Origin: Gemmatimonadota bacterium
GTDB taxonomy: Bacteria; Gemmatimonadota; Gemmatimonadetes; Gemmatimonadales; GWC2-71-9
Assembly (NCBI GenBank): GCA_003222055.1
Contig: QHUT01000070.1
Span: forward strand, 1-64,000
Direction of reading: 5' to 3'
Length of the DNA stretch: 64,000 bases
Shown: in pieces, positions 1,496 through 60,340 of the stretch
Layout: each line of letters begins with the position of its first letter
Numbering within the stretch: position 1 is the stretch's first letter
Made by a program: the position numbers and the translations under genes
The notes under the pieces: model-generated
Database searches by the model: none
What the model saw: the letters and a program-made list of their open reading frames with translations, nothing else
What the model was told of the DNA's origin: nothing

Positions 1496-1606
1496 AGGCG
1501 TCGAGTAGAGGCGTCGCGCTCAGGCGTCTCGCAAAGGCGTCACGCGACTACGTCTTCGCATGACGGTTCTGCGTGACGTTCTTGCGTGACGTCTGTGCGT
1601 GACGTC
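1496..1606. repeat. 13-nt-periodic array upstream of ispG
   Basis: Nine 7-mers fall on an exact 13-nt lattice at 1496, 1509, 1522, 1535, 1548, 1561, 1574, 1587 and 1600. They read AGGCGTC four times, CTACGTC, TGACGGT, TGACGTT, and TGACGTC twice, each separated by a 6-nt variable spacer. On the minus strand the array reads as degenerate tandem GACGTCACGCANN units. It ends eight bases before the ispG -10 box. It could be a minisatellite, a cooperative regulator-binding array or both. Confidence 0.85.
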
Positions 1607-1607
1607 T

Positions 1608-1625
1608 TTGCTTTATATTGGACTT
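1608..1625 (+). promoter_or_regulatory. ispG promoter, leaderless type
   Basis: TATATT at 1614-1619 is a good -10 box and lies exactly 6 nt before the GTG start at 1626, so the transcription start should coincide with the start codon. I see no convincing -35 hexamer; the corresponding position lies inside the 13-nt array. Confidence 0.5.
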
Positions 1626-3270: not shown

Positions 3271-3320
3271 CGTTTGAGATCTATAAGCAGCGCTCCGACA
3301 ACGGGAGCTCTCTGTTCGTG

Positions 3321-3360
3321 CCCCCTCTCCGTATTGCGGAGAGGGGGACATGCGGTGAGG
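3321..3360 (+). repeat. Interspersed palindrome, family 1, copy b
   Basis: Stem ccccctctccg/cggagaggggg, loop tattg, with the tail gacatgcggtgagg. It differs from copy c by only a few bases. Confidence 0.8.
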
Positions 3361-3504
3361 ACTCGTGAGGGCGGAGGGGGGGACAGGGCGTGGGGCCGGT
3401 GAGGTCCGCAACAACACGACCTCCCATGCATTGATTGGGTGACACTCTCGGTGGGTCCGTCTGGCATCGTTCGATCCGATGAACCCACGGTCGGCGTCGC
3501 GGCG

Positions 3505-3546
3505 TCCCCCCTCTCCGCATGGCGGAGAGGGGGACAGGGGGTGAGG
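3505..3546 (+). repeat. Interspersed palindrome, family 1, copy c, abutting comM
   Basis: Stem ccccctctccgc/gcggagaggggg, loop atg, then the tail gacagggggtgagg. The tail ends two bases before the comM ATG, so the element itself supplies the purine-rich Shine-Dalgarno of comM. Confidence 0.8.
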
Positions 3547-3548
3547 CC

Positions 3549-5084
3549 ATGCTCGCCCGCGTCCGCTCCGCTGCGGTGTTCGGTATCGACGCCTATCTCG
3601 TCGACGTCGAGACCGACATTGCCAACGGGCTCCCCACGTTCGCGACGGTCGGGCTGCCTCAAGGCGCGGTGAAAGAAGGCCGCGAGCGCGTCTATGCCGC
3701 GCTTGCGAACACGGGCTACACGTTTCCCCTGAAGCGCATCACGGTCAATCTCGCCCCTGCCGACATCCGAAAAGACGGCTCGGCCTTCGACCTCCCCATT
3801 GCCGTGGGCATTCTCGCGGCCACCGAGCAGATCTCCCCCGAGCGGCTCGGACGCGTGGCGGTGCTGGGCGAGCTCGGGCTCGAGGGCGCGATCCGGCCGG
3901 TGCGCGGCGCCCTGCCCGTCGCCCTCGCGACCCGAGCCGCCGGCCTCGAGGCGCTGGTGCTGCCGCGCGAGAACCTGCCGGAGGCGGGCGTCGTGTCGGG
4001 CGTACGGGTGCTCGGCGCCGGCAATCTCGCCGAGCTCGCGGACTATCTGGACGGCCGCGCCGAGCTGCCGGAGGCGCGAGTCGATCTCGCCGGCCTGCTC
4101 GCGGAGCGGGCGAAGCACGACGTCGACTTCGGAGAAGTGAAAGGACAGGCGCACGCGAAGCGCGCGCTCGAAGTCGCGGCGGCTGGAAGCCACAACGTCC
4201 TCATGATCGGGCCGCCGGGAAGCGGGAAGACGATGCTGGCCCGGCGGCTCCCGACCATTCTCCCGCGGATGAGCCTCGATGAGGCGCTCGAGACGACAAA
4301 AATCCATTCGGTGGCCGGTGTGCTGCCGGTCGGCGAGTCGCTCGTGGCGCGGCGCCCGTTCAGGGCCCCGCACCACACCATCTCCGACGCCGGCCTCATT
4401 GGCGGCGGCTCGTACCCGCGGCCCGGGGAGGTGAGCCTGGCGCACGGGGGTGTGCTGTTCCTCGACGAGCTTCCCGAGTTCCGCAAGAACGTCCTGGAGG
4501 TGCTGCGCCAGCCGATGGAGGACGGCGTGGTGACGATCGCCCGCGCCGCCATGAGCCTCACCTATCCGGCGCGCTTCATGCTGGCCGCGGCCATGAACCC
4601 GTGCCCTTGCGGCTACTTCGGCGACCCGCAGCACAATTGTGTGTGCGGCCCTCTGGGCGTGGAGCGCTACCTCGCCCGCGTCTCGGGGCCCTTGCTCGAT
4701 CGGATCGACATCCACCTCGAGGTGCCGGCCGTGAAGTACCGCGCGCTCGCGGACCAGGGCGGGGGCGAGACCAGCGAGGCGATCCGGGAGCGGGTGGACC
4801 GCGCGCGCGCCGTGCAGCGTGAGCGCTTCGCGGCGCGCCCCGGCGTGTATGCCAATGCCCACATGGCGGCGCGGGACATCCGCACGTTCTGCCGCGTGTC
4901 GGACGGCGCCGATGCGCTGCTGCGCACGGCGATCACGCGGCTCGCCCTCTCGGCCCGGGCGTATCACCGGATTCTCAAGATCGCCCGCACCCTCGCCGAC
5001 CTCGAGGGGAGGGCGGACATCCAGCCGAAGCACGTGAGCGAGGCGATTCAGTACCGCAGCCTGGATCGGAGGGGGCTGGGGTAG
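3549..5084 (+). CDS. comM: ComM-type Mg-chelatase-like AAA+ helicase
   Basis: ComM (YifB family) is a cytosolic hexameric AAA+ branch-migration helicase that helps integrate transforming DNA. The 511 residues are complete. They comprise an N-terminal ChlI/Lon-type domain (about 1-170), Walker A GPPGSGKT near residue 219, Walker B GVLFLDELPE, the cysteine-rich CPCGYFGDPQHNCVCGP insertion near residue 352, and the C-terminal Mg-chelatase domain. ATG 3549 is chosen because the family N-terminus MLARVRSAAVFGIDAYLV starts there; the track start 30 bases upstream lies in the palindrome. Its last 160 codons are duplicated at 6476-6958. The 605-aa antisense ORF is a shadow. Confidence 0.95.
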   Translation: MLARVRSAAVFGIDAYLVDVETDIANGLPTFATVGLPQGAVKEGRERVYAALANTGYTFPLKRITVNLAPADIRKDGSAFDLPIAVGILAATEQISPERLGRVAVLGELGLEGAIRPVRGALPVALATRAAGLEALVLPRENLPEAGVVSGVRVLGAGNLAELADYLDGRAELPEARVDLAGLLAERAKHDVDFGEVKGQAHAKRALEVAAAGSHNVLMIGPPGSGKTMLARRLPTILPRMSLDEALETTKIHSVAGVLPVGESLVARRPFRAPHHTISDAGLIGGGSYPRPGEVSLAHGGVLFLDELPEFRKNVLEVLRQPMEDGVVTIARAAMSLTYPARFMLAAAMNPCPCGYFGDPQHNCVCGPLGVERYLARVSGPLLDRIDIHLEVPAVKYRALADQGGGETSEAIRERVDRARAVQRERFAARPGVYANAHMAARDIRTFCRVSDGADALLRTAITRLALSARAYHRILKIARTLADLEGRADIQPKHVSEAIQYRSLDRRGLG

Positions 5085-5271: not shown

Positions 5272-6180
5272 CTACCAGCGGAGCTCGGTTGGAAAATACT
5301 CCGAAATCAATTCGTTATAGAAGGGCCGCAATTGCTCGACATTCGGGCGCTCGTGGCTTTTGGTATAAAGGTCGTAAGGATTGAAAGCTCGAACCCACGC
5401 GAACATTTCCTTGTCTCGGCCGTTCATGAGGTGTTGATATTCCCCTTCGCGGTGCGCCGGATAGAAGGAGTGATAGCGAATCATATAGAGGGCCTCCGGC
5501 GGCAGGTAATCTTTGACGACGTGATACAGATATTCGTCATGGCCCCAGGAGAGATGAACGTTTTCCAAGCCGCAGCCTTCTGAGTAGATGCCGGTTCGAG
5601 TCTGGTATTTCGGCTCTCGGCTGTCGGGATTGTCGGCGAAGAACTGATGAAAGACGATCTTGTCCGAATAGCCGCAGCCTACTGGAAACGTATCGCCTAC
5701 CACGGCCCACTGCGGCTCTCCGTAAAGACACAGGATTTTTCCCAGATCGTGAATGAGGCCCGTTAAGATGAACCAGCGCGGATGTCCATCCCGGCGGATC
5801 TGTTCGCCCGTTTGAAGCAGATGATCAAGCTGCGATAGATCGGTATCGGGATCGCTAGCATCGACCAGCGTGTTCAAAAACTCCATCGCTTCCCAGATTC
5901 CCATTTTGTGCCGCGACAGCGACAGAAATTCTTTCTTCTTGGCCTGCACGAAATCGTAAGTCTGATGGCGGTGATTGAGCCGGTAGAACTCGCGCACGCT
6001 GGGTCGTGCGTTGGCCTCATAATTTCGAAACTGCTCTTTGGTCTTATTCGGGTCCGTCGCCTGAAAGGGCTTTGAACTGGCGGCTGTCTCTTCAGGATAA
6101 CGGACTTTGAGGAAGTCCTCCCATTCTTCCAGGTTGGAAAGAGGGGCGTTCGAATTGGATGGCGTTTCTGTCGCGGCCAT
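5272..6180 (-). CDS. miox: myo-inositol oxygenase (MIOX family)
   Basis: MIOX is a cytosolic mixed-valent di-iron HD-fold oxygenase that cleaves myo-inositol with O2 to D-glucuronate. The 302-residue product covers the whole family. Iron-ligand motifs are all present: the His of [33 protein letters not shown] and NPYDLYTK, together with [16 protein letters not shown]. The likely start is ATG 6180 ([10 protein letters not shown]), not the track start 54 bases upstream. The gene is visibly lower in GC and uses A/T-ending codons, unlike its neighbours. It lies alone between intact comM and a duplicated comM 3' end. No inositol transporter or uronate isomerase is nearby. I infer recent horizontal acquisition. 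Confidence 0.92.
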
Positions 6181-7592: not shown

Positions 7593-7631
7593 AAAAGCAG
7601 ATCCTTCGCGCCTGCGGCGCTCAGGATGACA
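7593..7631 (+). repeat. Interspersed repeat, family 2, copy a
   Basis: It contains aagcagatccttcgcg, then cctgcggcgctcaggatgaca. It is inverted relative to copy b, so the pair can fold together. Translated on the other strand it gives the CHPERRRREGSAF string familiar from spurious ORFs in many bacteria. Confidence 0.75.
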
Positions 7632-7708
7632 CGCTCGCTCGTCTCGCGAAGAGTAAGGAGGAGAACGACCTCTATTATCCTTTCTTTCCCCCCGAAGCAG
7701 CCGGGCGT

Positions 7709-7760
7709 TGTCATCCTGAGCGAGCGCGCGGAACGCGCGCGAGCGAAGGACCTGCTTTTT
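7709..7760 (-). repeat. Interspersed repeat, family 2, copy b
   Basis: tgtcatcctgagcgagcg, an internal palindrome gcgcgcggaacgcgcgc, then gagcgaaggacctgctttt. It lies directly downstream of the minus-strand lipoprotein stop, where the hairpin could act as a terminator. Confidence 0.75.
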
Positions 7761-13436: not shown

Positions 13437-14821
13437 CCCGGCGCGTGCTGGTCGTCGACGATGAAAAGGGCATCCGTGAGGCCCTGACCCAGCTGCTCGA
13501 GTATGAGGACATCGAGGTGCAGGCGTGCGCCTCGGGCTCCGAGGCGCTGAGCCTCTACCCCGAGCTCCGGCCCCACCTCGTGTTCCTCGACGTGAAGATG
13601 CAGGGGATGGACGGCCTGGAGACCCTGCGCAAGCTGCGCGAGCTCGACCCGCGCGCGCAGGTCGTCATGATCTCGGGACACGGCACCATCCAGACCGCGG
13701 TCGAAGCGACCCAGCTCGGCGCCTACGACTTCCTCGAGAAGCCGCTCGACACGGACCGCATCCTCCTGACGCTGCGCAACGCCCTCGAGCACGTGGACCT
13801 CGCCAGCGAGAATGTGCGGCTCAAGGCCGAGGTGCACGCCCAGTACGAGATCGTGGGCACGAGCCGGGCCGTGAAGGGCGTGATCGAGCGCATCGAGAAG
13901 GTGGCGCCGACGGCGGCACGCGTCCTCATCACCGGCGAAAACGGCACCGGCAAGGAGCTGGTGGCCCGGGCCATCCACACGCTCTCCCCCCGTGCACCGC
14001 AGCCGTTCGTGGAGGTGAACTGCGCGGCGATCCCGACGGAGCTGATCGAGAGCGAGCTGTTCGGGCACATGAAGGGCAGCTTCACCGGCGCGTTCGCCGA
14101 CCGCGCGGGGAAGTTCGAGCTGGCCGATGGGGGCACGCTGTTCCTCGACGAGGTCGGGGACATGAGCCTCTCGGCCCAGGCCAAGGTGCTGCGCGCCCTG
14201 GAGGAGGGCGTCATCTCGCGCGTCGGGTCGGGCAAGACGCTCTCGGTGGACGTACGCGTCGTCGCCGCTACCAACAAGGACCTGCGCGCCGAGATCGCCG
14301 CGGGGCGGTTTCGCGAGGACCTGCTCTATCGGCTCAACGTCGTGCCGATCGAGGTGCCGCCGCTGCGCGCGCGCCGCGCCGACGTGCCGCAGCTCGTCGA
14401 TCACTTCGCCGCCCGCTTGACCGATCGCGGCGGGCTGCAGGCCAAGCGCTTCGACCCCGAGGCCCTGAAACGGCTCGCGGCGCACGATTGGCCCGGGAAC
14501 ATCCGCGAGCTGCGCAACGCCGTCGAGCGCCTGCTCATCCTGTCCACCGGTCCCACGGTCACCATATCCGATGTCGAGCGTATCGCGGGTGTGGGAACGG
14601 GGGACGGGGGAGGAGGGACGGGTCCGGCCGATGTCGCGGGCGCGCCGTGGATGCGGGCGGCGACGTTCGAGGAGTTCAAGCAGGTGGCGGAGCGGACCTA
14701 TATCCTGGCGAAGCTGCAGGAGAACGACTGGAATGTGTCCGAGACGGCGCGCACATTGGATATGCCGCGCAGCAATCTCTACAAGAAAATCGAGCGGTAC
14801 GGGCTGGCCCGGGAGGCGTAG
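13433..14821 (+). CDS. NtrC-family sigma54-dependent response regulator
   Basis: This is a 462-residue three-domain activator. The receiver domain spans about 1-120, with VVDDEKG, the phospho-acceptor FLDVKMQGMDGL and the switch residues SGHGT and EKPLD. The AAA+ domain spans 140-380, with Walker A GENGTGKE, the sigma54-contact loop GSFTGAF, Walker B GGTLFLDEVGDM and the arginine-finger region REDLLYRLNV. A Fis-type HTH ends it (NVSETARTLDMPRSNLYKKI). The linker before the HTH holds a heptad-repeat element at 14593-14622. No cognate histidine kinase is adjacent. The start GTG 13433 overlaps the upstream TGA and follows GGAGGAAG. Confidence 0.95.
   Translation: MTRRVLVVDDEKGIREALTQLLEYEDIEVQACASGSEALSLYPELRPHLVFLDVKMQGMDGLETLRKLRELDPRAQVVMISGHGTIQTAVEATQLGAYDFLEKPLDTDRILLTLRNALEHVDLASENVRLKAEVHAQYEIVGTSRAVKGVIERIEKVAPTAARVLITGENGTGKELVARAIHTLSPRAPQPFVEVNCAAIPTELIESELFGHMKGSFTGAFADRAGKFELADGGTLFLDEVGDMSLSAQAKVLRALEEGVISRVGSGKTLSVDVRVVAATNKDLRAEIAAGRFREDLLYRLNVVPIEVPPLRARRADVPQLVDHFAARLTDRGGLQAKRFDPEALKRLAAHDWPGNIRELRNAVERLLILSTGPTVTISDVERIAGVGTGDGGGGTGPADVAGAPWMRAATFEEFKQVAERTYILAKLQENDWNVSETARTLDMPRSNLYKKIERYGLAREA
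14593..14622 (+). repeat. Heptad element, single arm, inside the sigma54 activator gene
   Basis: The units are GGGAACG, GGGGACG, GGGGAGG and AGGGACG. It encodes a Gly-rich stretch (GTGDGGGGTG) in the linker between the AAA+ and HTH domains. Confidence 0.75.
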
Positions 14822-18909: not shown

Positions 18910-18974
18910 GGGAAGAGGGACGTGGGAAGGGGGAAGGGTGGTGGACCCTTCCCGCTTCCCTCTTCCCGCGTCCC
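18910..18974. repeat. Heptad palindrome between rpoD and yajQ
   Basis: The left arm is GGGAAGA, GGGACGT, GGGAAGG, GGGAAGG; the loop GTGGTGG; the right arm ACCCTTC, CCGCTTC, CCTCTTC, CCGCGTC. All units, the loop included, fall on one continuous 7-nt lattice. Confidence 0.85.
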
Positions 18975-18991
18975 GCCGTTTATTTCCCGCC

Positions 18992-23938: not shown

Positions 23939-24942
23939 GCGACCCGATCCGCATCGCCGTCGTCGGGGCCGGAGCGATCGCGCAGGTCGCCCATCTGCCG
24001 GCCCTGCGGCGGCTGCCCGGTGTGGAGGTGGCGGCGATCTGCGACAACGATCTGAGCAAGGCGCAGGCCCTGGCCGGCCGCTTTGAAGTCAAGGAGACGT
24101 TCGACGACATCGAGGAGGTCCTGAAGTACGCGCGCGCGGACGCGGTGGCGATCTGCACGCCCAACCACCTGCACGAGATCCACGTCGTCTCGGCGCTCGC
24201 CGCGGGCGTACACGTGCTGTGTGAGCGCCCGCTCGCCCTCACCGTCGCCGGGGTGGAGCGGGTGCTCCAGGCGAGCGAGAAATACGGCAAGCGGGTCATG
24301 GTAGGCATGAACCATCGCTTCCGGTCGGACGTGCAGGCGGTGCGCGGGTTCCTGGCCGGGGGCGACATCGGCGTGCTGCAGGCGATCCGGGGCGGCTGGT
24401 ACACGTTTCAGCCGAGCCGCCAGGTGATCGGCTGGCGGCTGCGGCGCCAGGAGGCGGGGGGCGGCGCCTTTCTCGACCTCGGGCTCCAGCTGCTCGACCT
24501 GGGCCTGTGGCTCGCGGGCTGGCCCGCCGCGAAGCGCGTCGCGGCACACACCATCGGGCAGTCGAAAGACGGCGTGGAAGACATGGCGACGGCGCTCGTG
24601 GTGTGCGAGAACGGCGTGTCGCTGTCGATCGACGTGAGCTGGCGCCACATGGGGGAGGCCGAGCGCTTCTGGTTCGACCTGGTGGGGACGAAAGGCTCGG
24701 CGAGCGTGCAGCCGCTGCGAATTTTCAAGGAGATCCACGGCAGCGTGAGCGACGTGACCCCGACCGGCGCGAGCGGGCGGGAGACGGCGTTCGCGCAGTC
24801 CTACCGAGCCGAATGGACGTATTTCCTGGCGGTCATCAAGGGCGACGTGAACGCGCCGCCGCCGCGTGACCAGCTGGCCCTGCACCGTGTGCTCGAGGCC
24901 GTCTATCGGTCGGCCGACGAAGGCCACGACGTGCGGCTGTGA
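23935..24942 (+). CDS. Gfo/Idh/MocA-family oxidoreductase
   Basis: This 335-residue NAD(P)-dependent dehydrogenase of unknown sugar-like substrate has an N-terminal Rossmann fold (IRIAVVGAGAIAQVAHLPAL) and the CTPNHLHEIHV segment. The usual EKPLA motif appears as CERPLALT, with Arg replacing the catalytic Lys. That exchange may alter or abolish classical hydride-transfer chemistry. The C-terminal alpha/beta domain has GGGAFLDLGLQLLDL where many members have GGG-D-GxH, so the His is also missing. It is coupled to the barrel and lnt genes. Confidence 0.88.
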   Translation: MSDPIRIAVVGAGAIAQVAHLPALRRLPGVEVAAICDNDLSKAQALAGRFEVKETFDDIEEVLKYARADAVAICTPNHLHEIHVVSALAAGVHVLCERPLALTVAGVERVLQASEKYGKRVMVGMNHRFRSDVQAVRGFLAGGDIGVLQAIRGGWYTFQPSRQVIGWRLRRQEAGGGAFLDLGLQLLDLGLWLAGWPAAKRVAAHTIGQSKDGVEDMATALVVCENGVSLSIDVSWRHMGEAERFWFDLVGTKGSASVQPLRIFKEIHGSVSDVTPTGASGRETAFAQSYRAEWTYFLAVIKGDVNAPPPRDQLALHRVLEAVYRSADEGHDVRL

Positions 24943-26504
24943 GCCGCGCTTTCTCGAACCGGCGGTCCGCGGCGCTGGTCGCGATCGGCGCCGCCCTCCT
25001 CACCGCCAGCTATCCTCCCTTTCGACTTCCCCTGCTGAGCTTCGTCGCCGCCGCGCCGGCGATCATCCTGCTGCGCCGGCTCGAGCAGGAGGGCGACGTG
25101 CGCGGCGCGCTGCGCTGGGGCTTCGCGTACGGTCTCGTGACGCAGGGAGCGGTGCTGTACTGGCTGGTCGTCGCGCTGTGGCATTTCACGCCGTTGTCGG
25201 CCCTCGGCTACCTCGCCACGATCGCCGTCTTTGGGCTGTGGCACGGCCTGCTTTTCTGGTTCGTGCTGCGGGTGCGCCGGCGCCTCCCCGCCGTGCCGCT
25301 CGCGCTCGTGTTCCCGCTGGCCTGGACCGCCGTTGAATGGGCCGTCGGCCATCAGGGGGATATCCGGTTTCCGTGGCTCGGGCTGGGCACGTCGCTCGGA
25401 GACGCACCGGTCCTCGTGCAATGGGCCGATCTCGCCGGTGCGCGCGGCGTGACCCTGTGGCTGGTGTGGTGCAATGTGATGCTCGTGGAAGCGTGCATCG
25501 GGAAGGGGGAGCGGGGAGCGGGGAGCGGTTCCCTCCGGTGGCGGCCGGCCGTCGTGGTTCTGGCGACGGTCCTCGCGGCCTGGGGATACGGCGTATGGCG
25601 CACCCGGACGCTGCCGCTGCGCGAGCTCGGCACGGTCGGGCTGGTGCAACCGAACGAGGGCTTCCGCGAGAAATGGGATCCCGCCCACGCCGACAGCGTC
25701 GTGGCGAAGCTGGTCGACCTGTCGCGCAAGCTCGAGTCCGGCGGCCGGCTCGACCTTCTGGTGTGGCCAGAGGCCGCCGTTCCCGGCTGGCTCGCGGAGA
25801 CGGCCGCGTGGGACGCGCAGCTCGCCGCGCTCGCGCGCGACACGCGCACGCCGATTCTCGCGGGCGGCCTGCACGCGGTGACTCCGGACGCCTATTACAA
25901 CGCCGCCTTTTTCTACGACTCGTCCGGTCAATGGCGGGCCTATCCGGTGTACGGCAAGCACTATCTCGTCCCGGTGGTCGAGCGGGTTCCGTTCGTCCCG
26001 GTGCGCCTGTTTCGCAGCGTGCCCGGCCTGGGCCACTGGTCCGGGGGGTTCTCGCCTGGGTCGACGCTGCCGCTCTATCCCAGCTCGCTCGGTCGCTTCG
26101 GCGTGCTCATCTGTTACGAGTCGGCGTTCGAGGATCTGGCGCGTCGTTATCGCGCCGCCGGGGCCGACTTTCTCGTGAACATCACCAACGACGCCTGGTA
26201 CGGCCGCACCGCCGGTCCCTATCAACACGCCACGCACCTGGTGATGCGGGCGATCGAGACGCGGACGGGGATCGCGCGCGCCGCGAACGACGGCATCTCC
26301 GAGTTCGTGGACCCCTTGGGCCGGACCTCCTCGGCCACGGGGCTCGAGGTCGAAGCCGTGGTGGCCGGCCGGCTGCGCACGAGCGACGTGATCCCGCCTT
26401 ACGTACGGCTGGGGGATTGGGTGGGGACGCTCTGTGTGCTTGCGACCCTGGGGTTCGCGGGAGCGCTGGCGGTGGACAAGTGGCGGTCCAGGCGCCTGCC
26501 GTGA
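24939..26504 (+). CDS. lnt: Apolipoprotein N-acyltransferase
   Basis: Lnt is the inner-membrane enzyme adding the third acyl chain to lipoproteins, which fits the many lipoproteins in this window. The 521 residues comprise six to eight membrane helices, then a nitrilase-type periplasmic domain with the Glu-Lys-Cys triad in LVWPEAAVPG, VYGKHYLVPVVE and LICYESAFEDL. A final helix is WVGTLCVLATLGFAGAL. The start GTG 24939 overlaps the previous TGA. A single-arm heptad element (25500-25527) encodes a KGERGAGSGS loop between two helices. The stop is immediately followed by another heptad palindrome. Confidence 0.94.
   Translation: MSRAFSNRRSAALVAIGAALLTASYPPFRLPLLSFVAAAPAIILLRRLEQEGDVRGALRWGFAYGLVTQGAVLYWLVVALWHFTPLSALGYLATIAVFGLWHGLLFWFVLRVRRRLPAVPLALVFPLAWTAVEWAVGHQGDIRFPWLGLGTSLGDAPVLVQWADLAGARGVTLWLVWCNVMLVEACIGKGERGAGSGSLRWRPAVVVLATVLAAWGYGVWRTRTLPLRELGTVGLVQPNEGFREKWDPAHADSVVAKLVDLSRKLESGGRLDLLVWPEAAVPGWLAETAAWDAQLAALARDTRTPILAGGLHAVTPDAYYNAAFFYDSSGQWRAYPVYGKHYLVPVVERVPFVPVRLFRSVPGLGHWSGGFSPGSTLPLYPSSLGRFGVLICYESAFEDLARRYRAAGADFLVNITNDAWYGRTAGPYQHATHLVMRAIETRTGIARAANDGISEFVDPLGRTSSATGLEVEAVVAGRLRTSDVIPPYVRLGDWVGTLCVLATLGFAGALAVDKWRSRRLP
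25500..25537 (+). repeat. Heptad element inside lnt
   Basis: The units are GGGAAGG, GGGAGCG, GGGAGCG and GGGAGCG, then GTTCCC, which may be the stub of an inverted arm. It encodes a Gly/Ser loop between membrane helices. Confidence 0.75.
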
Positions 26505-26508
26505 AATT

Positions 26509-26612
26509 GCGGATTGCGGATTTCGGATTGCGGGTTGGAACGGCTGGCCCGGTCGCGCGGCCCGACCTCTCATTGCAAATCCGCAATCCGCAATCCCCAA
26601 TCCGCAATCGGG
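26509..26612. repeat. Heptad palindrome between lnt and hyuA
   Basis: The left arm is GCGGATT, GCGGATT, TCGGATT, GCGGGTT. The right arm is AATCCGC, AATCCGC, AATCCCC, AATCCGC, AATCGGG. It begins four bases after the lnt stop and fills most of the gap before hyuA. Confidence 0.85.
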
Positions 26613-26634: not shown

Positions 26635-28662
26635 GTGAGGGTCGGTGTCGACGTCGGCGGCACGTTCACCGACCTGGCGGCGCTCACGCCCGACGGTGCC
26701 ATCGAGGTGCGCAAGGTCGCCACCACGCCGGACGACCCGGCGGTCGGGATGTTTCGAGCGTTGGATGCGCTGGCGACGAGGGACGAGAGACGGGGGACGA
26801 GTGCGGCGACATCCCGACCCGTCCCTCGTCCCTCGTCCCCCGTCCCTATTGACGTGCTGATCCACGGTACAACTATCGCCACCAACGCGCTGCTCGAGCG
26901 GCGCGGCGCGCGCGTGGTGTTGGTCACGACCCGCGGCTTCGAGGACCTGCTGTGGCTCGGGCGCCAGGACCGCGCCGCGCTGTACGACCTGGCGCGCCAC
27001 CATCCACCGCCGCTCGTCGCCCGGGAAGACGTCGTGCCCGCCGGGGAGCGCATGGGCCCCACCGGGGTGCTCGAGCCGCTCACGGACGGAGAAGTGGCGC
27101 GCGTCGTCGCCGCGGTGCGTGCGCTCGCGCCGGAAGCCGTCGCCATCGCGTTGCTGTTCGCGTTTCGCGACCCGACGCACGAGCGGCGTCTCGCGAGCGC
27201 GCTGCGCGACGGGCTGCCGCACGTGCCCGTTGCGGCGAGCCATGAGGTGCTCCCGCTGTTCCGCGAGTTCGAGCGCACCAGCACGACCACGGTCGAGGCG
27301 TACCTGCGTCCCAGGGTCTCGACATACCTGGAGCGTCTCGACGGCGGCGTGCGCCAGAGCGGGATCGGCGCGCTGTGCATCATGACCTCGAGTGGGGGCA
27401 CGCGCGCGCCCGCCGCCGCCGCCGCGCACGCGGCGTCGCTGGCGCTCTCGGGCCCTGCGGGAGGCGTCGTCGGGGCCCGTCTGGTCGCCGCCGCCGTCGG
27501 CCTGTCGGATCTGCTCACGCTGGACATGGGCGGCACGAGCGCCGATGCGAGCCTCGTGGTCGGCGGCGCCCCGCTCGCCGACAGTGCAGGCGCAGTCGGC
27601 GGCGTCCCGCTGGCCTTGCCCGCGGTGCTGATCGAAACCGTGAGCGCGGGCGGCGGCAGCATCGCGCGCGTGGACGAGGGTGGCGCCCTGCGCGTCGGGC
27701 CGGAGAGCGCCGGAGCGGTGCCGGGCCCCGCGTGCTACGGGCGCGGCGGCGAGCGGCCCACCGTGACCGATGCCTGTCTGGCGCTCGGCTGGCTCGACGC
27801 GGGCAGCCCGCTGGCCGACGACGTACGGCTCGACACCGCGGCCGCGGAGCGGGCCCTGCTCCGGCTTGGCCCAGCGGCCGGAGGCGACTCCACGCGCGTG
27901 GCCGCGGGGATCGTCGCCGTGGCCGGCGCGGCGATGGCGCGCGCCTTGAAGCGGGTGAGCGTCGCGCGCGGCCTCGACCCGCGTCGCATGGCCCTGCTGC
28001 CGTTCGGCGGTGCGGGGGCGCTGTTCGGGTGCCAGCTGGCGGACGCGCTCGGGATGGGGACGATCGTCATCCCGCCGCATCCCGGAACGCTGTCCGCGCT
28101 GGGGCTCGCTTCGGCGGCGGAGCGCGCGGATCTGCTCGCATCGTTTCACCGCCCCGTGGACGGGCTCGAGCCGCGCGCCCTGGCTCTCGCGTTCGCGCCG
28201 CTCTTGGCGGAGGGCGCTCGCCAGATACCGGGGGGCACGCTGCGGCGGTATGCCGACTGCCGCTTCGCGGGGCAGGGGTACGAGGTGACCGTCCCGGCCG
28301 ACGGCGACGAGCCGGCACGGATTCGTGACGAGTTCCTGGCGGCGCACCGTCGACGCTACGGACACGGGGGTGGCGGCCTGGCGGTCGAGATCGTCAATCT
28401 GCGCGTCGTGGCCTTGCGCGAGGGGCCGCTGCCGAGCTTCGACGGCAAGACCCGCACCGGGCGGCGCCCGCAGGGCCCGCGCGCATTCGTCGTGCGCGGA
28501 GAGCGGGTCACCGGCTCCGTCTGGGCGCTCGACGAGCTCGCCGGGGGGGTAACGATTCAGGGTCCGGCGATCCTCGCCGGCCGGGATGCGACCGCGCTCG
28601 TCGAGTCCGGTTGGTGCGGCACGGTGCACCCCTCGGGAGCGGTGCTGCTGGAGCGCACATGA
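26635..28662 (+). CDS. hyuA: Hydantoinase/oxoprolinase family protein, HyuA-type subunit
   Basis: This 675-residue protein is the ATP-binding ASKHA-fold subunit of hydantoinase, 5-oxoprolinase or acetone-carboxylase-type enzymes. Motifs are GVDVGGTFTDLA at the N-terminus, LIHGTTIATNALLERRGA, LTLDMGGTSADASLV, AGGGSIARVDEGG and GPESAGAVPGPACYGRGG. The start is GTG 26635 behind a strong ggggagggggg; the track start lies inside lnt. Codons around 26775-26847 derive from a heptad palindrome and enlarge the loop before LIHGTT. ATG of hyuB overlaps the stop. The true substrate cannot be read from the sequence. Confidence 0.92.
   Translation: MRVGVDVGGTFTDLAALTPDGAIEVRKVATTPDDPAVGMFRALDALATRDERRGTSAATSRPVPRPSSPVPIDVLIHGTTIATNALLERRGARVVLVTTRGFEDLLWLGRQDRAALYDLARHHPPPLVAREDVVPAGERMGPTGVLEPLTDGEVARVVAAVRALAPEAVAIALLFAFRDPTHERRLASALRDGLPHVPVAASHEVLPLFREFERTSTTTVEAYLRPRVSTYLERLDGGVRQSGIGALCIMTSSGGTRAPAAAAAHAASLALSGPAGGVVGARLVAAAVGLSDLLTLDMGGTSADASLVVGGAPLADSAGAVGGVPLALPAVLIETVSAGGGSIARVDEGGALRVGPESAGAVPGPACYGRGGERPTVTDACLALGWLDAGSPLADDVRLDTAAAERALLRLGPAAGGDSTRVAAGIVAVAGAAMARALKRVSVARGLDPRRMALLPFGGAGALFGCQLADALGMGTIVIPPHPGTLSALGLASAAERADLLASFHRPVDGLEPRALALAFAPLLAEGARQIPGGTLRRYADCRFAGQGYEVTVPADGDEPARIRDEFLAAHRRRYGHGGGGLAVEIVNLRVVALREGPLPSFDGKTRTGRRPQGPRAFVVRGERVTGSVWALDELAGGVTIQGPAILAGRDATALVESGWCGTVHPSGAVLLERT
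26775..26847. repeat. Heptad palindrome inside hyuA
   Basis: The left arm is ACGAGGG, ACGAGAG, ACGGGGG, ACGAGTG. The right arm is CGTCCCT, CGTCCCT, CGTCCCC, CGTCCCT. It stays in frame and encodes a TRDERRGTSAATSRPVPRPS-type loop. Confidence 0.85.
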
Positions 28663-30209
28663 GCCTCGATGCGGTCGGCCTGGAGGTGATGGGGCATGCC
28701 TTCGCCTCCGTGGCCGAGGAGATGGGGCTCGTGCTGATTCATTCGGCGGTCTCGCCCAATATACGGGAACGACGCGACTGCTCGGCCGCCCTGTTCGATT
28801 CCGCGGGCGAGATGATCGCTCAGGCCGCGCACATTCCGGTTCACCTCGGCGCGTTGCACGAGTCCGTCGCGGTCGTGCGGGCACTGGCCCCCGCGCCGGG
28901 CGACGTCTTCATCCTGAACGATCCCTACGCGGGCGGGTCGCACCTCCCGGACATCACGCTCGTCGGCGCCGTGGAGGTGGACGGCGCGGTGGGTGGCTAC
29001 GGCGTGGTGCGAGCGCACCATTCCGACGTGGGCGGCATGCAGGCGGGGAGCATGCCCGCGGGGGCGCGCGACATCTTTGCGGAGGGCGTGGTCGTGCCCC
29101 CGCTGCGCTTCACGCCGGAGGTCGAGCGCTTCCTGCTCGCCAACGTGCGCACCCCCGAGGCGCGCCGCGCCGATCTCGCGGCCCAGCGCGCTGCGGTCGA
29201 GCGCGGCGCCGACGGCCTCCGGGCGCTCGCGGCGCGCCACGGCTGGACCGTGCTGAGCGAGGCCGCGCGCGACCTCCAGGCGTACGCCGAGCGGCGGGCA
29301 CGCGAGGCGTTGGGACGCCTCGAGGCGACCGGGCTTACCGCGACCGACTGGTTGGAGGGCGACGGGGTCGACGACACCGACCTCGCGATTCAAGTCCGCG
29401 TGGACATCCAGGACGGTGTGTTCCACGTGGATTTCACCGGAACGGCGCCCGCCGCGCGCGGCAACGTCAACTGCCCGCTCGCGGTCGCGCGCTCGGCGGT
29501 GCTGTTCGTCGTGCGCACGCTGTTGCCCGGGGACGTGCCGACGAACGGCGGCGTAACGCGCGTCGTGCGGGTCACGGCGCCCGAGGGCTGCATCGTGCAC
29601 GCCCGCTTCCCGAGCGCGGTGGCGGCGGGGAACGTCGAGACCTCCCAGCGCATCGCGGACACCGTGTTCCTCGCGCTCGCGCGCGGCGGCGTCTCCGTCC
29701 CGGCGCAGGGGCAAGGCACGATGAACAACGTGACCTTCGGAGGGACGGGGGAAGGGGGACGGGGGACGGGTGGGTGGACCTACTACGAAACGATCGGTGG
29801 AGGGCAGGGAGCGAGCCACGGCGCTGACGGCCCATCCGGCGTGCATGTCGGGATGTCGAACACCCGCAATACGCCCATCGAGGTACTCGAGATGGAGTAT
29901 CCTTTGCGGCTTAGGTCTTATGGCTTGCGACGGGGCAGCGGTGGAGCGGGACGGTGGTCGGGGGGGGAAGGCGTGATTCGGGAATTCGAAGCGCTCGCCG
30001 CCATGGATGCGAGCGTCCTCGCGGACCGGCGGCGCCACGCTCCTTGCGGGGTCGGTGGTGGCGGCGCGGGCGCCACCGGTCGTACCCTCGTGAACGGCGT
30101 CCCGCTCCCACCCAAGGTGAGCACGCCGCTCGCGGCCGGCGACGTGGTGCGCGTCGAGACACCGGGCGGGGGCGGATGGGGACAACCTGAACCAGGAGGC
30201 CAGCGATGA
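28659..30209 (+). CDS. hyuB: Hydantoinase/oxoprolinase family protein, HyuB-type subunit
   Basis: This 516-residue partner of HyuA forms the other half of the ATP-dependent amidohydrolase or carboxylase. Family motifs are SVSPNIRERRDCS-like (AVSPNIRERRDCSAALFD), HIPVHLGALHESV, NDPYAGGSHLPDITLV, RAHHSDVGGMQAGSMP, GTAPAARGNVNCPLAV and YYETIGGGQGA. The ATG overlaps the hyuA stop. A single-arm heptad element at 29741-29768 replaces the variable loop after QGTMNNVTFG with GTGEGGRGTGG. The downstream TauE-like gene overlaps its stop, suggesting that the module includes its own transporter. Confidence 0.92.
   Translation: MSLDAVGLEVMGHAFASVAEEMGLVLIHSAVSPNIRERRDCSAALFDSAGEMIAQAAHIPVHLGALHESVAVVRALAPAPGDVFILNDPYAGGSHLPDITLVGAVEVDGAVGGYGVVRAHHSDVGGMQAGSMPAGARDIFAEGVVVPPLRFTPEVERFLLANVRTPEARRADLAAQRAAVERGADGLRALAARHGWTVLSEAARDLQAYAERRAREALGRLEATGLTATDWLEGDGVDDTDLAIQVRVDIQDGVFHVDFTGTAPAARGNVNCPLAVARSAVLFVVRTLLPGDVPTNGGVTRVVRVTAPEGCIVHARFPSAVAAGNVETSQRIADTVFLALARGGVSVPAQGQGTMNNVTFGGTGEGGRGTGGWTYYETIGGGQGASHGADGPSGVHVGMSNTRNTPIEVLEMEYPLRLRSYGLRRGSGGAGRWSGGEGVIREFEALAAMDASVLADRRRHAPCGVGGGGAGATGRTLVNGVPLPPKVSTPLAAGDVVRVETPGGGGWGQPEPGGQR
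29741..29768 (+). repeat. Heptad element, single arm, inside hyuB
   Basis: The units are AGGGACG, GGGGAAG, GGGGACG and GGGGACG, followed by GGTGGGTGG. It encodes a Gly-rich loop. Confidence 0.75.
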
Positions 30210-36348: not shown

Positions 36349-37249
36349 GCGCGCCGCGCACCCAACCCATCTGGGGTCGATCGGCGACGCGCTGCAGGAC
36401 GCCGCGGACCGCCTCGCCGCCTCGGGTCTGCCCGGCTCGCGTCGCGAAGCGACCATGCTGTGGGCGGCCGTGGCCGGTGCGGGGATCAAGCCCGGCGACG
36501 TGTGGCTACAACGCGACCAGGAGCCCGCGGCCGGGCTTGCGGAGCGGTTCTATCATGCGGTGGAGCGGCGGGCGAGCGGTGTCCCCTTCGCTTACGCTGT
36601 CGGCCGCACGGGTTTCCGCACGCTCGACCTGAAGCTCGACGCGCGGGCACTGATCCCCCGGCCGGAAACCGAGGGACTGGTCGATCTGGTGCTGCGGGAA
36701 GTCGGGAAAGGGGAAACGGGAAAGGTGAAAGGCGGCGTGGCAGCGGATATTGGGACGGGGTGCGGCTGCATCGCCCTCTCACTCGCCGTCGAGGGTCATT
36801 TCGACCGAGTCATCGCAGTCGAGCGCTCTGCGCAGGCGGCCGCCCTGGCGCGCGAGAACGTCGCGCTCGTGCAGCCGCCCGTACCGTTCGAGGTGCGCGA
36901 GGGGGACCTGCTCGCTCCCCTCGCGGGTGAGCGGTGTCGTGCCATCGTCTCCAACCCGCCGTACCTGACCGAGGCGGAGCACGTGGGGCTCGACTCGACC
37001 GTACGGCTGTTCGAGCCCCGCGACGCGCTCGTGAGTGGCGCGGACGGGCTCGCCGCCACGCGCGCCCTGCTCGCCGGGGCGCGCGAGGTGCTCGAGCCGG
37101 GCGGGCTGCTCGCCCTGGAGGTGGACGAGCGGCGCGCACGGCGCGTCGCTCGGCTCGCGCGGGAGCTGGCCTGGTCGCGCGTAAGGGTGTACGACGACGT
37201 ATTCGGTCGGCCGCGGTACGTGCTGGCCATCCTCGAGGAGGGCGCGTGA
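36341..37249 (+). CDS. prmC: Release factor glutamine methyltransferase
   Basis: PrmC methylates the GGQ glutamine of release factors using SAM. The 302-residue protein has a helical N-terminal domain ([21 protein letters not shown]), the [11 protein letters not shown] segment, SAM-binding motif [15 protein letters not shown] and the catalytic NPPY in [14 protein letters not shown] 36341 overlaps the prfA end by eight bases. A heptad element at 36703-36732 encodes the [10 protein letters not shown] stretch just before the SAM-binding strand, a variable loop in the family. Confidence 0.95.
36703..36732 (+). repeat. Heptad element, single arm, inside prmC
   Basis: The units are CGGGAAA, GGGGAAA, CGGGAAA and GGTGAAA, then GG. 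It encodes a Lys/Gly loop. Confidence 0.7.
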
Positions 37250-41873: not shown

Positions 41874-41920
41874 GGCCGTTCTTCAGGAGCACCGTTCCGG
41901 TCGTCGTCCGCGGCTCTAGG

Positions 41921-41959
41921 AACGCAGATCCTGCGCGCCTGCGGCGCTCAGGATGACAG
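41921..41959 (+). repeat. Interspersed repeat, family 2, copy c
   Basis: aacgcagatcctgcgcgcct followed by gcggcgctcaggatgacag. It matches 7593-7631 with a few changes and lies between convergent genes. Confidence 0.75.
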
Positions 41960-41996
41960 GCCCGCCCCTTCGCGGGAAGAAAAAGGAGGGACGACT

Positions 41997-42749
41997 CTAC
42001 TGATCCACCACCCGTACTCCGGCCGGGGGCGAAAACGTGAGCTCGCGCCCCGGCACGCCGCCGTTCACCCGGATCTCCCGCAGCATCACCGTGCGCCGCT
42101 GACCCGACGCCTCCACGATATCGAGGCGGCGCACCAGGGCGTCGTCCCGGCTCACCCAGATCGTCGCCTCGCTGTAGGGTTGGTCGCCCGTCTTGGGCAC
42201 GAGCACCACCACATCGGCCACGCCCTCCGCGAGCGAATCGACCCGGACGTAGCGCGCCGTGTAGCGTTCCCGCGGATGCTCGACGAACTGTCCGATCAGG
42301 TTCGGGCCGGTGGAGCCGTACTCCGGAATGCGGGAGCGCAGCACCTGGCCCGGCGTCGTGCTCGGCGTGTAGAGCCAGAGAAAGCGCCCGTCCGCCACAA
42401 TGCGGTCGCCTTTGGGGTCGGTGAACCGCATGGCGAAGCGACTGGGACGCATCTGGTACAATCGGCCGCGCGTCGTGTCGGGGGCGCCCAGCATCGGATT
42501 GGCCACGACCTGCACGAAGTCGGCCGAGAGACTGGCGATGGTCTGATACACGGCGCTCGCGCGGTCCAGGATCGGCCAAGGATCCGGAGACTGGAGCGCG
42601 AGGGAGAGGCCGATCGCAGCGATTGCGGATTGTGGATTGCGGATTGCGGATTGGATGGGCCGCCTGCTGAGTCGCGAGGGCGAGTGCCCGTATCGACGCG
42701 TGTCTCTCAATTCCGCAATCCGCAATCGGCAATCCACAATTTTTCTCAT
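41997..42749 (-). CDS. lolA: LolA-like outer-membrane lipoprotein carrier
   Basis: LolA carries lipoproteins across the periplasm. The core is recognisable from [25 protein letters not shown] through [37 protein letters not shown] to the beta sheets ending [10 protein letters not shown]. The start ATG 42749 overlaps the aroF TGA (ATGA), which fixes it. The N-terminal region before the hydrophobic core [10 protein letters not shown] is about 45 residues long and is encoded by a heptad palindrome ([14 protein letters not shown]). This is an abnormally long signal-peptide n-region, and export may be affected. Confidence 0.82.
42619..42740. repeat. Heptad palindrome inside the lolA signal-peptide region
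   Basis: The left arm is GCGGATT, GTGGATT, GCGGATT, GCGGATT, preceded by GCGATT. The right arm is AATTCCGC, AATCCGC, AATCGGC, AATCCAC. It uses the same unit as the element at 26509 and lies within the first 45 codons of lolA. Confidence 0.85.
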
Positions 42750-60263: not shown

Positions 60264-60268
60264 GCTAG

Positions 60269-60340
60269 AACGCGGAACGCGGAAGTGGGAACGCGGAACA
60301 TGCACGTCTGTTCCGCGCTCCGCGTTCCGACTTCCGCGTT
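60269..60340. repeat. Heptad palindrome filling the pth-ychF gap
   Basis: The left arm is AACGCGG, AACGCGG, AAGTGGG, AACGCGG. The right arm is TTCCGCG, CTCCGCG, TTCCGAC, TTCCGCG. The element runs from the pth stop to within six bases of the ychF start. Confidence 0.85.

Follow-up and report, generated by a model that had tools for sequence, protein, structure and literature searches.

The window (the whole 64,000-nt stretch of DNA that was analysed) belongs to a Gemmatimonadota soil MAG of 3.69 Mb in 173 contigs. Between and within its genes lie palindromes whose two arms consist of short tandem units, together with single arms built in the same way. A sequence-only reading had placed five heptad palindromes and four single arms, and direct sequence reading, TRF and a hairpin scan located all nine where they had been placed; TRF revealed a further palindrome with a longer unit. 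The elements are as follows:

1496..1611, no strand: palindrome of like architecture with a 13-nt unit (AGGCGTCNCGC..), TRF
14593..14622, + strand: single arm of GGGGACG units within a reading frame, TRF; 13 of 14 orthologous lengths are multiples of 3
18910..18976, no strand: GGGANGN palindrome filling the rpoD-yajQ spacer, direct reading and hairpin scan
25500..25528, + strand: single arm of GGGGAGC units within a reading frame, TRF; 15 of 16 orthologous lengths are multiples of 3
26506..26609, no strand: GCGGATT palindrome (E26506) that follows ORF 24939-26504, starting 2 nt beyond its stop codon, and precedes the hydantoinase A gene
26775..26847, no strand: GGGACGA palindrome (E26775) within the hydantoinase A reading frame
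29742..29770, + strand: single GGGACGG arm within hydantoinase B, TRF; 10 of 10 lengths are multiples of 3
36703..36732, + strand: single GGGAAAG arm within prmC, TRF
42621..42740, no strand: GCGGATT palindrome (E42621) directly 3' of a DAHP synthase ORF
60268..60340, no strand: AACGCGG palindrome (E60268) between ychF and its upstream gene; G009 and G001 have it at this site in the opposite orientation

For comparison, relatives were taken from soil MAGs (labelled AG3, AG36, AG49 and others), and four congeners (G000, G001, G007 and G009) were surveyed over 446-525 kb per genome, 1.97 Mb in total; all genomes are MAG assemblies, each read in part. Tandem-unit palindromes were scored with a paired-array detector, a single strict-score scanner being too insensitive. 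The whole genome to which the window belongs contains 72 exact GGGANGNx4 arrays vs 0 for a reversed-pattern control. These arrays are patchily distributed across the genus and family, and of 298 genomes in the phylum 35 contain GCGGANNx4. Long hairpins numbered 38 in 454 kb of the window's own genome vs one in shuffled sequence, and their arms showed an autocorrelation of 0.62-0.77 at lag 7 and of about 0.2-0.4 at other lags. Chance, against which the sequence-only reading had proposed to check such runs, does not account for them in the four congeners either, where 83 tandem-unit palindromes were found vs one in shuffles. Period 7 was clearly the commonest (55 palindromes, including period 14), followed by periods 8 (12), 10 (8) and 9 (6), with one palindrome each at periods 13 and 5. 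The predominance of the heptad therefore stood, whereas the proposed constancy of unit length did not, periods 8, 9 and 10 together making up 26 of the 83. The unit families of the four congeners include GCGGANN, GGGANGN and GCGGTGC/GTGGTGC as well as families with longer units (the 8-mer GGCGGACN, the 9-10-mer AGGTTGGGG(G) and the 10-mer ACGGTAGAGG), and several families coexist within each genome. Units are 7-10 nt long and carry one or two G runs; a GGG run is present in the GGGANGN family, and no run longer than GG occurs in the GCGGANN, GCGGTGC and 8-mer families.

Arms of 7-mers peak at 4-4.5 units (about 31 nt) and seldom exceed 5, so that exactly four units per arm, as had been claimed, gives way to a size peaking at 4.5 units. 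The longer arm had a median length of 31 nt in 7-mer palindromes, 29 nt in those of 8-mers and 32.5 nt in those of 9-mers. Loops have no fixed length (from -2 nt to over 90 nt, with one of 234 nt), and the nine-unit 7-nt lattice noticed at rpoD-yajQ therefore has no special meaning. The G-rich arm is the 5' arm in 76 of the 83 palindromes (convergent G arm / C arm), and the G/A strand bias seen in the window was confirmed more widely, at 84 vs 10 in periodic hairpins; non-periodic hairpins, at 130 vs 118, do not show it. Predicted RNA folds of the window elements were far stronger than those of shuffles (z -4.7 to -6.7); an Rfam covariance-model search of the window gave no match. If the elements have a role, they probably act as strong predicted RNA stem-loops located between neighbouring genes within an operon.

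Palindromes lie mainly in spacers, mostly between co-directional genes and often a few bases from stop and start codons, and single arms lie in coding DNA, which corrects the earlier picture of their placement; E26775, in the hydantoinase A frame, is an exception among the palindromes. Gene calls were mechanical and ORF-based, and the 33 of 82 elements that they assigned to coding sequence are an over-call, because open frames extend through spacers in GC-rich DNA. Coding context was therefore judged from aligned orthologs and length modulo 3. By this measure, 42 of 44 distinct orthologous segment lengths of single arms in coding sequence were divisible by 3. The prmC array measures 36 nt in 5 of 5 genomes with GGGAAAG, GGGACGA, GGGATGC or GGGAAAC as its unit, and the unit also varies by species in the arm at 25500 and in that of hydantoinase B at 29742. 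At one site two genes overlap or abut in G009 and have elements between them in G000, G001 and G007.

Presence or absence at orthologous loci of sister genomes, which the sequence-only reading had singled out as informative, was scored with flanks as anchors in 140 directed comparisons among G000, G001, G007 and G009 (not independent, because reciprocal pairs enter twice): 97 sites were occupied (68-70 by palindromes), 7 held other hairpins and 36 were empty. The identical classifier applied to 3000 random windows returned 0 palindromes and 7.7% chance arrays. Among the 97 occupied sites, the unit was identical in 23, and unit or period differed in 74. The G core (GGGA, GCGGA, GGTG) is retained between species and the rest of the unit varies. 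Within an array and its mirror arm almost every copy carries the same variable part, which is also common to loci of one genome. Locus-specific units, as described for the window, are thus borne out and prove to be species-specific as well. Exact counts of GCGGATTGCGGATTGCGGA and GCGGAACGCGGAACGCGGA were 46:3 in G000, 2:49 in G009, 13:16 in G007 and 10:23 in G001, the numbers of arrays being lower because matches overlap; GCGGATT dominates G000 and GCGGAAC dominates G009, with flanks about 90-95% identical. The 9-nt unit AGGTTGGGG of G000 is matched by the 10-nt AGGTTGGGGG at two G001 sites. G000_C16 (L091) has 13-nt-spaced repeats at a site that is occupied by a 9-mer palindrome in G009 and by a 10-mer palindrome in G007.

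The window sites display the same variation. The rpoD-yajQ spacer is empty in G002, L010, L011, L018, L019, L021 and L022 and elsewhere holds GCGGTGC (G009, G005), GTGGTGC (G001) or GTGGGGA palindromes. Orthologs of E26506 carry GCGGAAC or GCGGAAT/GT or are empty. In G001 and G007 the E26775 site is without an element or has one array only, and in G035 it holds a GGGACGG palindrome; the E42621 site is occupied by GCGGATT in G000, G001 and G002, by GGAACGC in G009 and G007, and by 8-mers in G006, G008 and G035. The AG49 MAG yields two distinct yajQ loci (L009 and L022), so that either this assembly is mixed or the gene is present in two copies. AACGCGG copies listed from several genomes repeatedly share the variant heptad AAGTnGG. 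This recurring variant and the genome-wide unit families indicate that dispersed copies exchange sequence, and simple copying, which had been ruled out from the window, comes back into consideration. Since sites are kept and the word differs in every copy, some process probably rewrites the elements in concert, which supports the active generating or homogenising process suspected earlier.

Loops were informative on how arms change. At G000_C40:35605, G000, G001 and G007 share a homologous loop of 87-91 nt (z 7-11) and the arms all differ (GGGAAGC, GGGAAAC and GGGACGG). The 58-nt loop of E26506 is common to carriers of GCGGAAT/GT and to the GCGGAAC carrier G001 (z 4.8-6.4), with weaker similarity against G009 (z 1.9-2.9) and homology that is modest for the most distant pairs. 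Elements were also found inverted in place: E26506 is inverted in G004 (z 8.9 inverted vs 3.2 direct), and E60268 matches between G000 and G009 at 68 of 73 positions inverted vs 55 direct, and at 71 direct between G000 and G007, so that the orientation in G000 and G007 is opposite to that in G009 and G001. The loops of G000 and G009 had no clear similarity at three sites that both genomes occupy (z 2.1, 2.5 inverted and -0.3), most flanks being about 90% identical. Wholesale replacement of elements therefore occurs too, and these three sites point to insertion or replacement of the whole element rather than conversion of the arms only.

Site conservation, units concerted within and across loci, in-place inversion and framing within genes are thus features of these elements. 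We favour, with a probability of roughly 0.5, the reading that they are vertically kept, mostly intercistronic stem-loops with arms of G-cored units that evolve in concert. Slippage could spread a variant unit along one arm, hairpin or cruciform template switching could copy this arm onto its partner and flip the element, and ectopic conversion or occasional replacement among dispersed copies may spread the winning unit through the genome. Selection would limit palindromes mainly to spacers and keep coding arrays in frame. Besides the three G000/G009 sites with dissimilar loops, two points count against this reading: slippage leaves the direction bias of the arms (G-rich 5') unexplained, and RecA does not usually mediate ectopic exchange over so short a length (about 30 bp) when the flanks are unrelated. 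A dedicated system acting in trans, with a template or recognition surface specific to the unit, for which a telomere-like polymerase or a hairpin-specific recombinase would be candidates, might instead write G-cored heptads at chosen sites; a change of specificity would then rewrite all copies of a genome, as between G000 (GCGGATT) and G009 (GCGGAAC). We give such a system a small chance. The telomere-like version, in which a putative enzyme heals breaks by adding templated G-rich units to 3' ends, two such ends being joined into a G-arm/loop/C-arm palindrome and a template change swapping the unit genome-wide, is a long shot. It would fit the unit length of 7-10 nt, the one or two G runs per unit, the differing loops at shared G000/G009 sites, the genome-wide swap between these genomes and an arm polarity as in fused telomeres (G strand toward the loop, in 76 of 83), a resemblance only, which is missing from non-periodic hairpins. 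However, several unit families occur per genome, loops are inherited at some sites despite arm change, and the conserved in-frame arrays within genes require no break.

Mobility was weighed against the same evidence. REPIN-like non-autonomous hairpins, moved by a transposase and re-inserting in the same spacers or in older copies, would explain dispersed families with species-specific units, the empty sites between G000 and G009 and the unrelated loops at sites shared by these genomes, and REPINs are likewise inverted doublets with free spacers (PMC3116915). We nevertheless consider this origin unlikely, as no Y1 transposase match was found in G001 and G007 (93-94% complete), both with dozens of elements, and the Y1 genes of the clade are flanked by other palindromes, mostly not of the heptad type (one weak case, L242); this distribution and these flanks do not support Y1/RAYT as the mover. 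Moreover, loops are inherited at two sites while arms change, arrays in coding genes hold length and frame through unit change, and no target duplication was seen in the few empty/filled pairs inspected, the boundaries of which are blurred. Negative gap lengths that resembled target duplications were an artefact of trimmed flanks. Selection of four G runs per arm for quadruplex folding would suit the four-unit preference and the GG core of nearly all units, and CD data have been used to argue the case for the repeats of Xanthomonas and Nostoc (PMC4692102). It is improbable here, since the commonest families (GCGGATT, GCGGAAC, GCGGTGC and 8-mers) have GG runs only at a similar arm size and, in the predicted fold of a palindrome, pairing with the complementary arm sequesters the G arm. 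Very improbable are intrinsic terminators or attenuators under selection whose units converged independently: the elements lie mostly between co-directional genes near stop or start codons and have strong predicted stems, but TTTT occurs within 10 nt in only 4 of 163 element flanks, arrays are found in coding sequence too, and genome-wide identical units are left unexplained.

No paper on these repeats in Gemmatimonadota was found in the literature searched. The closest known kind is the G-rich heptanucleotide inverted repeats of Xanthomonas, with 70 and 75 GGGAATC convergent inverted pairs per genome, 83% conserved in their gene context, and a preference for four units (PMC4692102); the sequence-only reading, which took cyanobacterial STRRs as nearest kin, overlooks these palindromic pairs. 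The repeats of Xanthomonas and Nostoc (GGGNATC / GGGGA(C/T)T, mostly intergenic; PMC4692102) and those described here are alike in their G-rich tandem heptads and preference for four units, and the Xanthomonas repeats also in their convergent inverted pairs (76 of 83 here) and mostly intergenic position. One unit type is reported per lineage in Xanthomonas and Nostoc, whereas in Gemmatimonadota several families and periods coexist, units are swapped at orthologous sites, elements invert in place and coding arrays stay in frame; in addition, many units have GG only, unlike the quadruplex-capable type, although GGGANGN has GGG. New here are the many unit families and the unit swap at fixed sites between close relatives. 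With REPINs (PMC3116915) the palindromes have in common short inverted doublets with free spacers, extragenic dispersal and families per genome, but their arms are tandem heptads and the Y1 (RAYT) genes of the clade are flanked by palindromes mostly of other types, so that membership of the RAYT-REPIN system is not supported. The TAACTGA heptamers of Beggiatoaceae, Cyanobacteria and Bacteroidetes likewise form arrays, near gene starts and in phyla far apart, but have a single fixed unit and nearly all are direct repeats, with one indirect repeat reported (PMC4679880). Two MAGs labelled Acidobacteria contain palindromes of this architecture, L083 a GCGGATT palindrome at 6084-6177 and L059 a TCAGTTA palindrome, the reverse complement of TAACTGA, at 4957-5040; the architecture therefore crosses phyla, as far as labels from MAG titles indicate.

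The unit swap points to a copying activity in Gemmatimonadota and, via GCGGATT, in the Acidobacteria-labelled MAG L083. rDNA and satellites are familiar cases of concerted evolution, and the genome-wide swap of a 7-nt unit over dozens of dispersed hairpins, with sites fixed and the species compared closely related, offers a direct, countable test bed for short-repeat homogenisation without long homology. The quadruplex explanation of heptad repeats is brought into question because GG-only units behave alike, and fast unit change at stable sites could mark strain history.

Other repeats were noticed alongside the heptads. The Y1 gene of L244 is flanked by GTAG..CCCCGGGG palindromes and that of L246 by CCCCGGGG palindromes, which look like a REP-RAYT-like system unrelated to the heptads. 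The window itself contains a 27-nt inverted pair at 3320-3533 (CCCCCTCTCCG..CGGAGAGGGGG), each copy of which is palindromic by itself, and a second inverted pair at 7618-7722 (TGTCATCCTGAGCG..CGCTCAGGATGACA, region 7594-7722). Positions 7594-7661 match 41921-41989 (about 41903-41999), a dispersed repeat that recurs many times over in the congeners.
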